Source: Pirellulales bacterium
Lineage (GTDB): Bacteria; Planctomycetota; Planctomycetia; Pirellulales; Lacipirellulaceae
NCBI GenBank assembly: GCA_019636345.1
Contig: JAHBXQ010000003.1
Span: 496,001-560,000 of the forward strand
Length of the DNA: 64,000 bases
Direction: 5' to 3'
The notes under the pieces are model-generated. The model saw only the letters and a list, made by a program, of their open reading frames with translations, was not told where the DNA came from and did no database searches. The stretch's first letter is position 1, and the number at the start of each line of letters is the position of its first letter. This document shows positions 3,319-58,355 of this stretch, piece by piece. The position numbers were made by a program, and so were the translations under genes.

Positions 3319-4032
3319 ATGAGACGCGCTAAGGCTGGTCGATTTCTTTTCCCGGCGTTCGCAGCGGTTTGTTGTGCGCTGGTCGGCTCGCAGGCGGCGG
3401 CGGGGCCGCTGGCGACGACGGCGTTCGCCCTGAACGACGGTTTTGGTCCGGCTGGCGGCGCGTGGCGCGGAACCGTGTCGATTGCCGGCGCCGCTTTCGG
3501 GGACACAGTGGTGGCGGAGGTCGACTGGGCGGCGTTCGGCGTGGGCGGATTTCAGCAGTATCTCAACAGCCAGGCGATCGCGCAGGTTGATCCCTCGGGT
3601 CCGAACGAGGTGACGTACGTTTACCAGATCAGTTTGGTCACGAACGCTTCGCCGGGAATCGATACGCTGACCGTAGGCCTCGATGCGGGCGACGGACGGG
3701 GGACCGTCTTGGCTCCGACGTTCGTGCCGACCGGCGCCGCGAATGAACAGTCGCCCGCCAGCGGCGGAGACAATTCGACTTCGATGGCGTGGTTCTTTAA
3801 CGGCGCCGAACTTGCGCCGGGGGACGTCAGCAGTTTGCTGGTCTTTACAAGCCCCTTCTCGCCGGAGTTCGACTTTCTGCAAGTGAACTCGGGGCTGGCG
3901 GGGCCCGTGGTCTCGCCGCTGGTCGCGAGCCCGAGCGATCGGGTGTACATCGTTCCGGAACCGGCGTGTGGACTGTTGCTCGCGGTCGCCGCGGTCATCG
4001 GGGCGTGGCGGAGAGCGTCTGCGAAGGCGTGA
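3319..4032 (+). CDS. PEP-CTERM sorting-domain exported protein, paralogue of the previous gene
   Basis: A 237-residue protein if started at ATG 3319. An in-frame GTG at 3292 would add nine residues in front of the signal peptide and is less likely. The signal peptide MRRAKAGRFLFPAFAAV is followed by an AXA-like site (SQAAAG). The C-terminal PEP-CTERM tail is VPEPACGLLL, a hydrophobic helix and a terminal RRASAKA. The middle shares a block order with the 2603-3217 product, which suggests tandem duplication with strong divergence. It is probably an exosortase-processed surface or matrix protein of unknown role. The 101-bp gap to the previous gene and shared direction allow co-transcription. Confidence 0.85.
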   Translation: MRRAKAGRFLFPAFAAVCCALVGSQAAAGPLATTAFALNDGFGPAGGAWRGTVSIAGAAFGDTVVAEVDWAAFGVGGFQQYLNSQAIAQVDPSGPNEVTYVYQISLVTNASPGIDTLTVGLDAGDGRGTVLAPTFVPTGAANEQSPASGGDNSTSMAWFFNGAELAPGDVSSLLVFTSPFSPEFDFLQVNSGLAGPVVSPLVASPSDRVYIVPEPACGLLLAVAAVIGAWRRASAKA

Positions 4033-4521
4033 CGATCGTCTTGAAGGGGGCACGCCGCAATCGAGCGGTGCTATTGACGCTCCGGACTTTGAGCGCCGGA
4101 GCTTCGCCCATGGCTTTTCGAAGCCCCATGGCTTTCCGGAGCCGCTTCCCACGGAAGCGCCTCGCTCCGACACGGCTTACGGAGCAAAAAGAGGAACGCT
4201 CCCTGCTTGAAATCGCTCTGGTCAATCTCGTCGTGGTCAAGCGATCGATTGGGGCGGCGAGTTGCGTCTGCCGCAATCCGAACCACCTCGTCCGGCACGT
4301 GACGACGGGCTGGTCACATGCTCGACGCCGGCCTGGGCCGCGAACAAGCCGCGCATCAAGGCCGGCTTGAGGGCAGCAATTCGCCGTCACTGCTCCCCGG
4401 AGCGTGAACGGTTACGCCGACAGTTGATCATCAGGGTCGGCGATTTTCTCCTTGCCCCCCGACTTCGTTTACACTGGTGCGGGCGTCGGCAAGACCGGCC
4501 TTCCTCGTTTGGAGGTGCTCC
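4033..4521. other. Intergenic region with an IS-end-like repeat
   Basis: No gene is supported. Around 4108-4145 the CCATGGCTTT phrase is repeated, giving a small internal duplication. The right part holds the IS66-end-like copy at 4316-4414. The ribosome-binding site of the next gene is at 4511-4516. Confidence 0.55.
4316..4414 (-). repeat. Repeat copy 1 with an IS66-like end (short version)
   Basis: On the minus strand this segment begins GTAACCGTTCACG, then has a CGGGGAGCAGTGACGG block and ends in a block containing GATGCGCGGC and CGGCGTCGAGCATG. The same two end blocks occur at 5559-5819, where about 160 extra bases separate them. IS66-family elements start with GTAA, so a decayed IS66-type terminus is a plausible reading, but no transposase was recognised next to it. 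Confidence 0.5.
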
Positions 4522-6845: not shown

Positions 6846-7394
6846 GGCAATACCTCCCCCTTCGAAACAAAACCAGCAGGACAAAAGGCAGAAGCGCTGC
6901 AAAGTCGTACGGCGCCGCTCTCACGGAGAACACGGCGCGCCGCGAAGGCGCAACACCGACTGCCAACCTCGCGCGAACTGGGCAGCGCTTCTGGAACAAA
7001 CCGCGTGCGCCATCCACCACAAGGCGGCAATTGACGTTCCGCTCGCGGGGATGCAGGATCGCCCGAGAAAACGCGGGTTTTGCCTCGGGCGCCCCGTTTG
7101 CCCGCAGTTCCCAATCGGCACAGTTGCGTCGTCGCGGCACAGTGCTCCGGGGGCGGAGACTTACCGGTCGCCGCGTCTCGCCGAGACGCGAAGCGCGTGC
7201 CGACCGCGTCTTGGGGTCGTGATCCCATTTGCGCCCTTGGAAGGGCGCCTGGGGTCGCAGCGCAGCGGAGCCCCCAGGGAATCCGCTGGGGTCGCACTTC
7301 GTTCGACCCCAACCACCCATCAATTTGGCAAATGGGTATCACGACCCGTTTTGTCGACGCGGCCACGTAGGAGTCACGGGCTACGCCACGGCGA
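6846..7394. other. Intergenic region upstream of the Cys-rich gene, containing a MITE
   Basis: No gene is supported. The left part is the leader and upstream region of the Cys-rich gene; no convincing promoter hexamers were seen. The transposon-like element at 7215-7346 occupies the right part, 48 bp past the end of glpK. Confidence 0.55.
7215..7346. mobile_element. MITE-like palindromic element, copy 1
   Basis: A 132-bp element. It begins GGTCGTGATCCCATTTGC and ends with the reverse complement of nearly the same sequence (GCAAATGGGTATCACGACC). Inside lies the GGCTGGGGTCG-type palindrome also found at 14061, 26651 and 58288. The flanking 8-mers CGTCTTGG and CGTTTTGT agree at six of eight positions, consistent with a decayed target duplication. 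It is a sister of the 26622-26751 copy. It carries no gene and is presumably mobilised in trans. Confidence 0.75.
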
Positions 7395-14060: not shown

Positions 14061-14256
14061 TGGGTGGCTGGGGTCGGAGCGAAGCGGAGCCCCCAGATGC
14101 GTCCCATACGTTGAGGGCTACGTACGAGGCGCGTGCTTGGCCAATATCCAGCAACAGATTGTGGAAAAGCGGCTTCCATCGTACGCGACGAACAGGCGGG
14201 ACAACAACAAAACAGTCGTTAACTGGGGGCTCGCTTCGCTCGACCCCAGCCACCCA
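14061..14256. repeat. Long inverted repeat between convergent genes (GGCTGGGGTCG family)
   Basis: The left arm at 14061-14096 starts TGGGTGGCTGGGGTCGGAGC. The right arm at 14223-14256 is its reverse complement apart from two one-base gaps. About 126 bp of less GC-rich DNA separates the arms. It lies just after the polymerase gene and before the end of mqnE, which converge here. It may act as a bidirectional terminator, or the spacer may be an insertion into one palindrome. The arms are the same core as at 7215, 26622 and 58288. Confidence 0.8.
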
Positions 14257-25614: not shown

Positions 25615-26538
25615 TTATGGCGCGGCCGCCGCGCGGGCCGCGGCGACGTCGGCCTCGAGTTGGGCCAGCAGTTCGTCCTGCGAGGCGAAGGTCTGCACGC
25701 CCCGCAGCCGGCGGGCGAACTCGACCTCCAGCGGCTGGCTGTACAAGGTCTCGCTGCGGTCGATCAGGTGAATCTCGACCTTGCGGACATGATCGCCGAA
25801 GGTGGGGTTGGGTCCCAGGTGGATCGCTGCCGCGGCGCTGTCGCCGTCGAAGTACGCTCGGCCGGCGTACACCCCGTCGGCGGGCAGCAGCGTGTCGATC
25901 GCCTCGAGGTTGGCCGTGGGAAAGCCGAGCTTCGCTCCGCGGCCGGCGCCGTGGGTCACCATGCCGCGGATGCGGTACGGGCGCTGGAGCAGTTCAGCGG
26001 CCAGGGCCACGTCCCCCGCAGCGACAAGCGCGCGGATGCGGCTGCTGGAGACGAGCTCGCCCCCGACGGCGACCGGCTGCACGACGTCGAGCGTCATCCC
26101 CGCCGTGGCGGCGAACCGGCCGAGCACCTCGACGTTCCCCGCGCGATCGTGGCCGAAGTAGAAGTTGGGACCCTCGACGAGCGCTCGCGCCCCGAGGGCG
26201 TCGACGACGATGCGGTCGAAGAACTCCCGAGCCGAGAGCGCCAGCAGCGCCTCGTCGGTGGGATAGGCGACGACTCGATCGACGCCGATTTCGGCCAGCA
26301 GTTGGGCTTTGCGGCGGGTCCAAGTGAGCGGCGGGGGGCAGCTCTCCGGGCGCAAGAGTCGCACCGGGTGCGGGTCGAAGGTGAACACGAGGGCGGGGCC
26401 GCGCAGCTCGCGCGCCCGCAGGAGCAATTGAGCGACGATGCGGCGATGCCCGGCGTGGACCCCGTCGAAGTTGCCGATCGCCACGGCGCCGCCGCGCAGC
26501 TTGGCGGGGAAGTCGGCAAGTTGACGAATGACCGGCAC
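25615..26538 (-). CDS. ribF: Bifunctional riboflavin kinase / FAD synthetase
   Basis: A 307-residue RibF. The N-terminal adenylyltransferase domain shows GNFDGVHAGHRRIV, FTFDPHPVRLL, FFDRIVVDALGA and the SSSRIRALVAAGD block. The C-terminal riboflavin-kinase domain has GRGAKLGFPTANL and the GVYAGRAYFDG and NPTFG elements. The start is set at GTG 26538 because the protein then has normal length. The open frame runs on upstream into the transposon-like element at 26622-26751, so a naive longest-frame start is wrong. It makes FMN and FAD, cytoplasmic. Its promoter must lie between the element and the gene, or inside the element. Confidence 0.92.
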   Translation of the reverse strand: MPVIRQLADFPAKLRGGAVAIGNFDGVHAGHRRIVAQLLLRARELRGPALVFTFDPHPVRLLRPESCPPPLTWTRRKAQLLAEIGVDRVVAYPTDEALLALSAREFFDRIVVDALGARALVEGPNFYFGHDRAGNVEVLGRFAATAGMTLDVVQPVAVGGELVSSSRIRALVAAGDVALAAELLQRPYRIRGMVTHGAGRGAKLGFPTANLEAIDTLLPADGVYAGRAYFDGDSAAAAIHLGPNPTFGDHVRKVEIHLIDRSETLYSQPLEVEFARRLRGVQTFASQDELLAQLEADVAAARAAAAP

Positions 26539-26621
26539 GCGAGCGATTCCGAAGTCGGCAACGGCGACGAAACCGCGATTATCCCGCCCGGGCGCCGCAG
26601 GGTCAACGAGGCGTGACAAAC

Positions 26622-26751
26622 GGTCGTGATACCATTTGCAGCCTTTGGAAGGGCGGCTGGGGTCGCAGAGCAGCGGAGCCCAGGGGATCCGCTGGGGGCT
26701 CACTTCGTTCGACCCCAGCCACCCATCAATTTGGCAAATGGCATCACGACC
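26622..26751. mobile_element. MITE-like palindromic element, copy 2, with perfect target duplication
   Basis: A 130-bp element bounded by GGTCGTGATACCATTTGC and its reverse complement with one mismatch (17 of 18). It is flanked on both sides by the same 8-mer TGACAAAC (26614-26621 and 26752-26759), the footprint of transposition. The interior is the GGCTGGGGTCG palindrome with a short loop. It inserted between the divergent ribF and ppx genes. It codes for nothing, so a transposase elsewhere must move it. The 8-bp duplication limits the possible parent families; which one is not clear. Confidence 0.88.
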
Positions 26752-26837
26752 TGACAAACGCGCGACCATCGGCAAGCCGTCACCCGCACGGTATGATTGA
26801 GCGAGCGAACAGGCCGGTTCACCGCGGAGGGCATGGG

Positions 26838-28418
26838 ATGCCGCAGCAGCAGACGTATCTGAGTCCGGATCTTGCGCCCCGGTTGGCGGCGATTGACGTC
26901 GGCAGCAACAGCATTCGGCTGGTCGTCGCCGAGGCTCAGCCGGGGGGGCGCTACCGGGTGCTCGACGAGGATCGCGAGACGACCCGGCTCGCCCGGGCGC
27001 TGGCCAACGGCGGCGAACTCGACGAGGAGTCGATCAACCTGTCGGTCGCGGCGCTGCGGCGGTTCAAGGCCATCGCCGAGGGGCTGCACGCCGGGCGGAT
27101 ACGGGCGATCGCCACGTGCGCGGTTCGCGAGGCGACCAACGGCGCCGAGTTTTGCCGGCGCGTCGAGGAGGAGGTCGGCCTGCCGATCGAGGTGATCAGC
27201 TCGCACAAAGAGGCCGACCTGGCGTTCGCCAGCGTGCGGCGGCGGGTCGATCTCGCGGGCAAGAACACGCTGCTGGCCGACATCGGCGGGGGGAGCACCG
27301 AGCTGATCGTCGCCTCGGGCGAGGTCGTCGAGTCGGTCTACGCGACCCGACTGGGCGCCGTGCGGCTGGCCGAGCGGTTTGGCGCCGGGCAGGCGCTGGC
27401 CGGGGACGACTACGTGGCGATGCAGCGGTGGATCGACCGCGAGTTGAAGCAAATCACGGGGGGGAAAACCACGCCGCTCCATGGGCTGATCGGCTCGGGA
27501 GGGACTTTCACCAGCGCGGCGAGCATCGTGATGGCGGGGCGCGGATTGGCGGCGCTTCCGGCCGGCGGGTCCCAAATGTCGCGGGCCGAGGTGCGACACC
27601 TCGTCGACCGGTTGCGGAAGATGACCCCCAAAGAGCGTCGCGACGTTCCGGGCCTCAATCCCGATCGGGCCGACATCATCGTCCCCGGGCTGGCGATCAT
27701 CGACCGAATCATGAAGCGGTTTCGCGTGAACAAGCTGCATGTGCACGCGTACGGAGTGCGCGACGGGCTGCTGTTGTCGATGATCGACGAGATGCAGGGC
27801 GCCCGAGACGCCGGGCCTCCGTCGCCCGACGAGCAGATCGACCGCTTCGCCGCGACCTGCGGGGTGGAGCTGCGGCACGCGAGGCACATCTCGCGGTTGG
27901 CGGTGGAGATCTATCGGGGCCTGCGCAAGTTGTTCGAGCTCCCCGCGGGGGACGAGCGGTTGCTCGCCGCGGCGGCGCGGCTGCAGGACGCGGGATACCT
28001 CATCAGTTACGAAGGGCATCACAAGCATTCGTATCACCTGATCCTCCATTCGCGGCTCGACATGTTTCGGCCGGAGGAACTCGAGATCGTCGCGAACGTG
28101 GCGCGGTACCATCGCGGGTCGGAGCCGAAGGGGAAGCACCTCAATTGGCGGGCCCTCGCGCCGGCGGCTCAGTTGCGCGTGGCGCAGATGGCCGCTGTGT
28201 TGCGGATCGCGGGAGGGCTCGATCGGAGCCACAATCAGACGGTTCACCGCGTGCGGGTGGAAGGGACCCCCGACCAAGTCGAACTGGCGATCGAGGCGGA
28301 CGAGTACCCCGAGACCGACCTGTGGGCGGCGCGGCGACGGGCCGGGTTGTTCGAGAAGGTGTTCGCCGCGACGCTCACGATGGAGTGGGCGGGGGTGCGC
28401 GCGGCGGCGCCGGGGTGA
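26838..28418 (+). CDS. Ppx/GppA-family phosphatase with C-terminal HD-like domain
   Basis: A 526-residue protein from ATG 26838, preceded by GGAGG at 26826-26830; a longer frame to 26613 reads through the transposon-like element and is rejected. The actin-like ASKHA core is shown by AAIDVGSNSIRLVV, LADIGGGSTELIV and LIGSGGTFTSAASI. The C-terminal ~200 residues contain an HD-type helical region (HISRLAVEIYRGL, YEGHHKHSYHLILHS). The family covers exopolyphosphatase and guanosine pentaphosphate phosphatase; the long C-terminus fits the Ppx/GppA long form. It acts on polyphosphate and/or pppGpp in the cytoplasm. The upstream element may affect its expression. Confidence 0.9.
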   Translation: MPQQQTYLSPDLAPRLAAIDVGSNSIRLVVAEAQPGGRYRVLDEDRETTRLARALANGGELDEESINLSVAALRRFKAIAEGLHAGRIRAIATCAVREATNGAEFCRRVEEEVGLPIEVISSHKEADLAFASVRRRVDLAGKNTLLADIGGGSTELIVASGEVVESVYATRLGAVRLAERFGAGQALAGDDYVAMQRWIDRELKQITGGKTTPLHGLIGSGGTFTSAASIVMAGRGLAALPAGGSQMSRAEVRHLVDRLRKMTPKERRDVPGLNPDRADIIVPGLAIIDRIMKRFRVNKLHVHAYGVRDGLLLSMIDEMQGARDAGPPSPDEQIDRFAATCGVELRHARHISRLAVEIYRGLRKLFELPAGDERLLAAAARLQDAGYLISYEGHHKHSYHLILHSRLDMFRPEELEIVANVARYHRGSEPKGKHLNWRALAPAAQLRVAQMAAVLRIAGGLDRSHNQTVHRVRVEGTPDQVELAIEADEYPETDLWAARRRAGLFEKVFAATLTMEWAGVRAAAPG

Positions 28419-58244: not shown

Positions 58245-58287
58245 GCGGCGCGTGTCGGCAGGGATCCGCCGGACGCGGGGTGGCGGG

Positions 58288-58355
58288 GTGGCTGGGGTCG
58301 CAGCGCAGCCCCCAGTTGCGTCTCTGGGGGCTCGCTGCGCTCGACCCCAGCTGCC
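58288..58355. repeat. Palindromic repeat between convergent genes (GGCTGGGGTCG family)
   Basis: GTGGCTGGGGTCGCAGC and following bases (58288-58314) fold back on CTGGGGGCTCGCTGCGCTCG and following bases (58324-58355). The loop is nine bases. Its position between the stops of two convergent genes suits a bidirectional terminator. It is the compact form of the repeat also seen at 14061 and inside the MITEs. Confidence 0.75.

Follow-up and report, generated by a model that had tools for sequence, protein, structure and literature searches.

The stretch between ribF and ppx in the analyzed window (the whole 64-kb stretch of DNA under study) raises two questions: how a short, gene-free sequence with inverted ends came to lie there, and which enzyme moved it. 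The initial annotation read it as a MITE with a perfect 8-bp target duplication. We consider it likely, with a probability of about 0.8, that the element is a MITE in which two ends of an IS1-type transposon enclose REP-like hairpins arranged as an inverted pair, and that it was moved by a transposase made elsewhere. Such a transposase would have bound the 18-bp ends of the gene-free element, excised or copied it, and placed it in a staggered cut of 8 bp (sometimes 9 bp), repair of which would have produced the duplication TGACAAAC.

The element and its copies

The non-coding element spans 130 bp (26622–26751), with the bounds and length originally assigned. Its left terminal inverted repeat, GGTCGTGATACCATTTGC (26622–26639, plus strand), agrees at 17 of 18 positions with the right one, GGTCGTGATGCCATTTGC on the minus strand (26734–26751), and the two perfect 8-bp copies of TGACAAAC lie at 26614–26621 and 26752–26759; the single end mismatch and the perfect duplication had both been described correctly. 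The ends of the family are also given as GGTCGTGATNCCATTTGC. The element has no coding capacity, and frames of at least 60 amino acids merely pass through it.

Two REP-like units make up the interior. The left one (26651–26683, plus strand; consensus GGGTGGCTGGGGTCG..CCCCAG, with GGGCGG here) is a block also present in other genera, in whose genomes it is not accompanied by MITE-type ends. The right unit (26692–26724, minus strand) is inverted relative to the left, and nucleotides 30–103 of the MITE form an inverted pair of the unit GGGTGGCTGGGG...CCCCAG. The predicted fold of the 130 nucleotides has an energy of −76.3 kcal/mol (z = −7.8 against shuffled sequences). The sole Rfam match, to Mcr7, was sub-threshold (18.4 bits; gathering score 380) and was taken as chance.

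Within the window, the end motif with up to three mismatches was matched 3 times versus 0.03 expected from shuffles. The third match is one end of a second MITE copy (7215–7346, plus strand), which has a degraded duplication, CGTCTTGG/CGTTTTGT.

The genome to which the window belongs (5.18 Mb, 15 contigs, 95.9% complete) contains further copies. A search with the element, in which scores were computed for 40 of 88 candidates, matched at least 40 places. The 18-bp end, with which the annotation had proposed to search, was matched at up to three mismatches 45 times in forward and 50 times in reverse orientation, versus 5 matches for a reversed control. We examined 42 copies, namely these 40 and two others shortened by deletion to 95 and 97 bp; four with unreadable ends were dropped. 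Among the 38 retained, all left flanks were different, 11 copies had perfect 8-bp duplications (28 with at most one mismatch, these 11 included), and four others had perfect 9-bp duplications. Of 1406 mispaired flanks, used as a control, none agreed perfectly and 2 agreed with one mismatch or fewer. The reading as a MITE is borne out by the number of matching places and by 8–9-bp target duplications far beyond chance. Identity of the copies to the consensus had a median of 93% (range 60–97%), which suggests that the burst was not very recent.

The element resembles MITEAba12 and other bacterial MITEs in being short and gene-free, with terminal inverted repeats, target duplications, tens of copies and mobilization in trans; MITEAba12 itself is attributed to ISAba12 and has 9-bp duplications, and the part of its description available to us contains no REP-pair core (PMC6382973).

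Search for the parent transposon

The annotation had called the parent transposase unknown. This can now be narrowed by a complete relative in another genome of the order (G117), a 3269-bp element (L324, 1129–4397) with GGTAGTGATACCGTTTG exact at both facing ends and a perfect 8-bp duplication, GGGCGTTG. It encodes a 333-aa IS1-like transposase as one long frame. This protein scored 38.4 bits against PF03400 (DDE_Tnp_IS1), above the Pfam cut-off of 24.1; its best NCBIfam model was NF033558 (IS1 family; E = 4.5e-15), with 56 bits under a cut-off of 100. Since the relative has the same ends and duplication length, the parent of the MITE was probably a transposon of the IS1-family type. The window's own genome yielded no full-length parent. 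An orphan MITE family thereby gains a likely parent. Our conclusion is that the MITE relies on a transposase of the IS1 type, presumably through an element now lost from this genome or unassembled in it. The copy at 26622 appears to have been moved by an IS1-like transposase that is no longer active there. Two passenger frames of the G117 transposon (L324:1148-1603 and 3624-4214) had no family match above cut-off.

Pieces of the L324 transposase were found at four more loci, each no more than 2 kb inward of such an end. They lie about 30 bp from the end in L303 (G042), about 45 bp in L329 (G185, of the same family as the window's genome; weak, E = 7e-4), about 0.4–0.5 kb in L145 (G039; weak, E = 1e-5) and about 1.9 kb in L192 (G039). 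L315, L220 and L298 represent the same places and are not counted as extra loci. No further locus among those compared matched at E < 0.001, and the loci compared from the window's own genome gave no match at that threshold.

GG-starting ends with 8-bp duplications also occur in transposons of the IS6, IS256, ISL3 and IS1595 types, so a DDE transposase of another such family may move the element, the IS1-like gene of L324 then being a coincidence. We regard this as improbable. The L324 protein does match IS6/IS240 models, weakly and below the cut-off in each case (PF13610, 20.1 bits; NF033587, 22.6 bits), but the IS1 models score better, and pieces of this protein lie inside such ends at four further loci. 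An IS256-type parent was considered and rejected: PF00872 gave 6 matches, all partial (4 in the window's genome, 2 in G001, none in G039 or G057), and the best end-like match in the loci of the former four had 3 mismatches, with none closer in the IS256-type loci. These four matches (C2:754174, C10:127649, C5:295538 and C3:622757; L208, L210, L212 and L213), two of them with an internal stop, suggest decayed IS elements.

Besides the transposase of the G117 relative, the likeness to the IS1 family lies in the 8–9-bp duplications (in the window's genome 11 perfect of 8 bp and 4 of 9 bp among 38 copies; 8 bp in L324) and perhaps in the ends, which start GGT.(A/G)TG. The ends of IS1A from E. coli K-12, GGTAATGACTCCAACTTA and GGTGATGCTGCCAACTTA, share 9–11 of 18 positions with the MITE ends, a modest likeness; for the one pairing checked, with 10 of 18, 758 of 100,000 shuffles were as good. 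Differences were also evident. E. coli IS1 has the frame pair InsA/InsB with a frameshift, whereas L324 has a single frame; single-frame IS1 members exist. Furthermore, the L324 element is 3.3 kb long and carries other genes, and no complete IS was found in the window's genome. For a composite transposon whose borders are ISAba3-like elements of the IS1 family, one report describes 8-bp duplications and ends GGTGGTGTTTC..., which start GGTGGTG (PMC6382973).

In the window's genome, a check by eye of the end matches showed no pair at full-IS spacing; the matches mostly pair at MITE distance, and a long parent element was rejected there. Ten unpaired ends were read, with matches of 3 mismatches covered in part: eight lie beside a core, one (L079) beside a short end-only form and one (L078) in plain sequence.

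Across 396 sampled genomes of this order, the end pattern of the window's genome (at most one mismatch) was present in 30 genomes and the variant GGTAGTGATACCGTTTG in 22, many matches of both patterns being single. Such single matches at 29 loci of other genomes (L113–L141) often fell inside long frames, and none had a partner end with duplication within 1.5 kb. Two genomes first set aside on single ends, G092 (L119) and G082 (L135), were later found to hold family elements. End matches in G057 were no more numerous than in the control (9 vs 10), and most further ends in G039 had no partner with duplication within reach.

Longer elements with such ends were also observed. In G039, L142:381-3067 (2.7 kb) and L144:1879-3054 (1.2 kb) have the same ends and 8-bp duplications with one mismatch each. 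One L142 protein had no Pfam match, and the L324 transposase matched neither L142 nor L144; both are possibly non-autonomous transposons with passengers. In G185, family ends at L329:1037-2567, where no duplication was seen by eye, enclose a small IS1-like transposase remnant and a 406-aa AAA/STAND-like ATPase, possibly a cargo gene.

Effects at the ribF–ppx locus

The neighboring open frames enter the element, as had been noted: the longest ribF frame (25615–26775) begins at a TTG and the longest ppx frame (26613–28418) at a GTG. The warning that longest-frame annotation would give both genes false N-termini proved justified. The likely ribF start, read from the sequence, is GTG 26538 (25615–26538, minus strand), and that of ppx, which encodes an exopolyphosphatase, is ATG 26838 (26838–28418, plus strand). 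In this form the ppx product aligns from residue 1 with homologues from 6 other genomes. The element explains two false N-termini, and further copies may cause more.

A promoter scan based on consensus matches gave two predicted promoters here (shuffle mean 0.0), both outside the element: TTGACC-17-GATAAT for ribF (26578–26606, minus strand) and TCGGCA-17-TATGAT for ppx (26769–26797, plus strand). If these predictions are correct, the MITE separates the two promoters and would be transcribed with neither gene. The insertion added 138 bp, element and duplication together, between divergent promoters; since the predicted hexamers are untouched, it was probably near-neutral.

That the insertion was instead retained for a function, for example to insulate the two promoters or to provide a protein-binding hairpin, is unlikely, and such a role would not compete with an origin by transposition. 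Its position between two predicted promoters, its strong structure and its still perfect duplication would suit a function, but none of 25 other ppx loci shows the element. Among the 26 loci, only the window's own has MITE ends in the upstream stretch of 800 bp (225 bp in L182; the L179 and L187 matches begin inside the gene). A single TGACAAAC was likewise kept at none of the 25, because the intergenic sequence is neither conserved nor alignable.

Hairpin cores within the ends

The middle of the MITE is a separate REP-like inverted pair that also occurs elsewhere without the MITE ends, a feature absent from the initial annotation. Partial matches to the MITE were found in 14 of 59 genomes, with at most 14 candidates scored per genome. 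The window's genome and G001 have the ends; in the other 12 only the core matches. Most of the 20 loci displayed from these 12 genomes showed inverted pairs with differing spacers, or single units (in L094 and L102 the core match lies outside the displayed stretch). None of the 12 has an end match of the window's type, and one, G042, has a match to the GGTAGTGATACCGTTTG variant. Inverted pairs of the form GGGTGGCTGGGG...CCCCAGCCACCC constitute a REP-like repeat in several families of the order (e.g., L083, L086, L100 and L104), with a conserved tag and a variable loop. The window itself holds two unit pairs without MITE ends. One, at 14062–14255, is inverted, with about 125 bp of other sequence between its units and no target duplication visible by eye; in the other, at 58286–58352, the right unit has a diverged tag.

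As a short tagged palindrome that occurs in inverted pairs and also alone, the core resembles REP/REPIN sequences (PMC3733652, PMC3116915). It differs from the GTAG-tagged REPs of those reports in its tag, GTGG, in the lack of a RAYT link in our search, and in lying inside DDE-type transposon ends. GTAG does occur in the cores of G039 and NP86.

Palindromic REP repeats are normally thought to depend on RAYTs. The whole element could instead be a REPIN (REP doublet) that owes its movement to a RAYT, a Y1 transposase, with the outer 18-bp ends incidental. This is very improbable. The inverted hairpin pair in the middle stands alone in many genomes, and Y1 transposase genes are present in the window's genome and in relatives, but the 8–9-bp duplications lie directly outside the 18-bp ends, which contradicts movement by a RAYT, and a core-free element of 33 bp also duplicated its target. 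In addition, a search of 33 Y1 loci (of 74 matches) with short exact patterns gave one core match, about 1.4 kb from the gene (L111). With no closer link in these loci, a RAYT-linked REP was rejected as a description of the core, and we call it REP-like rather than a RAYT-moved REP. A chance inverted repeat beside a chance flanking octamer is refuted by the at least 40 places in the genome, the 3 end-motif matches versus 0.03 expected, and the duplications compared with mispaired flanks.

The ends recur around other cores. Across different planctomycetes they enclose five inverted hairpin pairs that are unrelated to one another, of the types GTGG, GTAGGGAACGG, GTAGGACGGAT, GTGTGCC and GGTACTCCGAGG. 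A genome_contigs scan for both ends at MITE distance returned 39 stretches, and three planctomycete assemblies in it had full-end elements: HKST-UBA22 (G001; 7 stretches, with the core type of the window's genome), new MAG-42 (G092; 8 stretches, core GTGTGCCATGTCCACG..) and NP86 (2 stretches, core GTAGGACGGATTGCTAATCCGTC..). By eye, none of the hits beyond these three combined both GG ends with a duplication, and most of them were dismissed as chance. G039 contains elements whose core is GTAGGGAACGGACTCCGTGCCGTTCC.., and one element with the GGTACTCCGAGG palindrome was found in G022.

The comparison used a single core per kind, which made six cores with the window's genome and G001 counted apart. 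In 14 of the 15 pairs, similarity did not rise above the 95% level of shuffled sequence; the window's genome with G001 was the exception. The self-inversion of all six cores exceeded the best of 200 shuffles. Duplications were perfect at 4 of the 8 MAG-42 elements, with one mismatch at 2 more; NP86 had one with one mismatch and one with two. In G001, 2 of 6 scored were perfect and 1 had one mismatch at a 1-base offset. In G039, the duplication at L188 was offset by 1 base and had one mismatch, and L194 had no duplication.

Existence without ends was shown for two of the five cores, the GTGG type and the G039 type (in L198 and L192). The view that the core is an independent REP in all lineages was not supported. 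In 131 kb of MAG-42, on contigs chosen mostly for holding ends, 13–14 unit matches lay near an end; one unit pair (L347) had no recognized end, although to the eye its flanks resemble decayed ends. The G022 core appeared once in 160 kb of that genome, and this case rests on a single element at which no duplication was found.

Elements with little or nothing between the ends bear on the role of the core. At L326:2525-2557 (G082), a 33-bp element consists of the two ends alone and has a perfect 8-bp duplication, CCGCCCTT. The window's genome has two forms of 49 bp: L050, whose 9-bp duplication contains one mismatch, and L031, which has no duplication. Since such end-only elements carry duplications, the hairpin core is probably cargo not needed for movement, and the ends seem to be enough. 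The 33-bp element is very small for a transposable element.

By itself the MITE is ordinary; its probable IS1-type parent and its interchangeable hairpin cargo are the noteworthy parts. Our search of titles and abstract beginnings in the open-licence literature returned no description of the family, and we consider it a new MITE family with an interchangeable and unusual hairpin cargo. One transposon end-pair frames unrelated hairpin cores in several planctomycete lineages, and two of these cores exist independently as REP-like repeats. A tentative extension, which we hold to be somewhat less probable than its opposite, is that IS1-type ends in Planctomycetota act as a cassette frame into which REP doublets or other hairpin pairs, unrelated to one another, have repeatedly been captured, the palindromes then being spread by a DDE transposase. 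If capture is recurrent, REP-type repeats would have a second route of dispersal besides RAYTs.

Short elements with ends strongly inverted around GTGATNCC.TTT were also observed in unrelated bacteria, namely bacterium DS4.bin61 (L263), Bacteroidales (L280 and L288) and Clostridia (L283). Their terminal letters differ and no duplication was visible by eye; they are perhaps other MITEs or chance.
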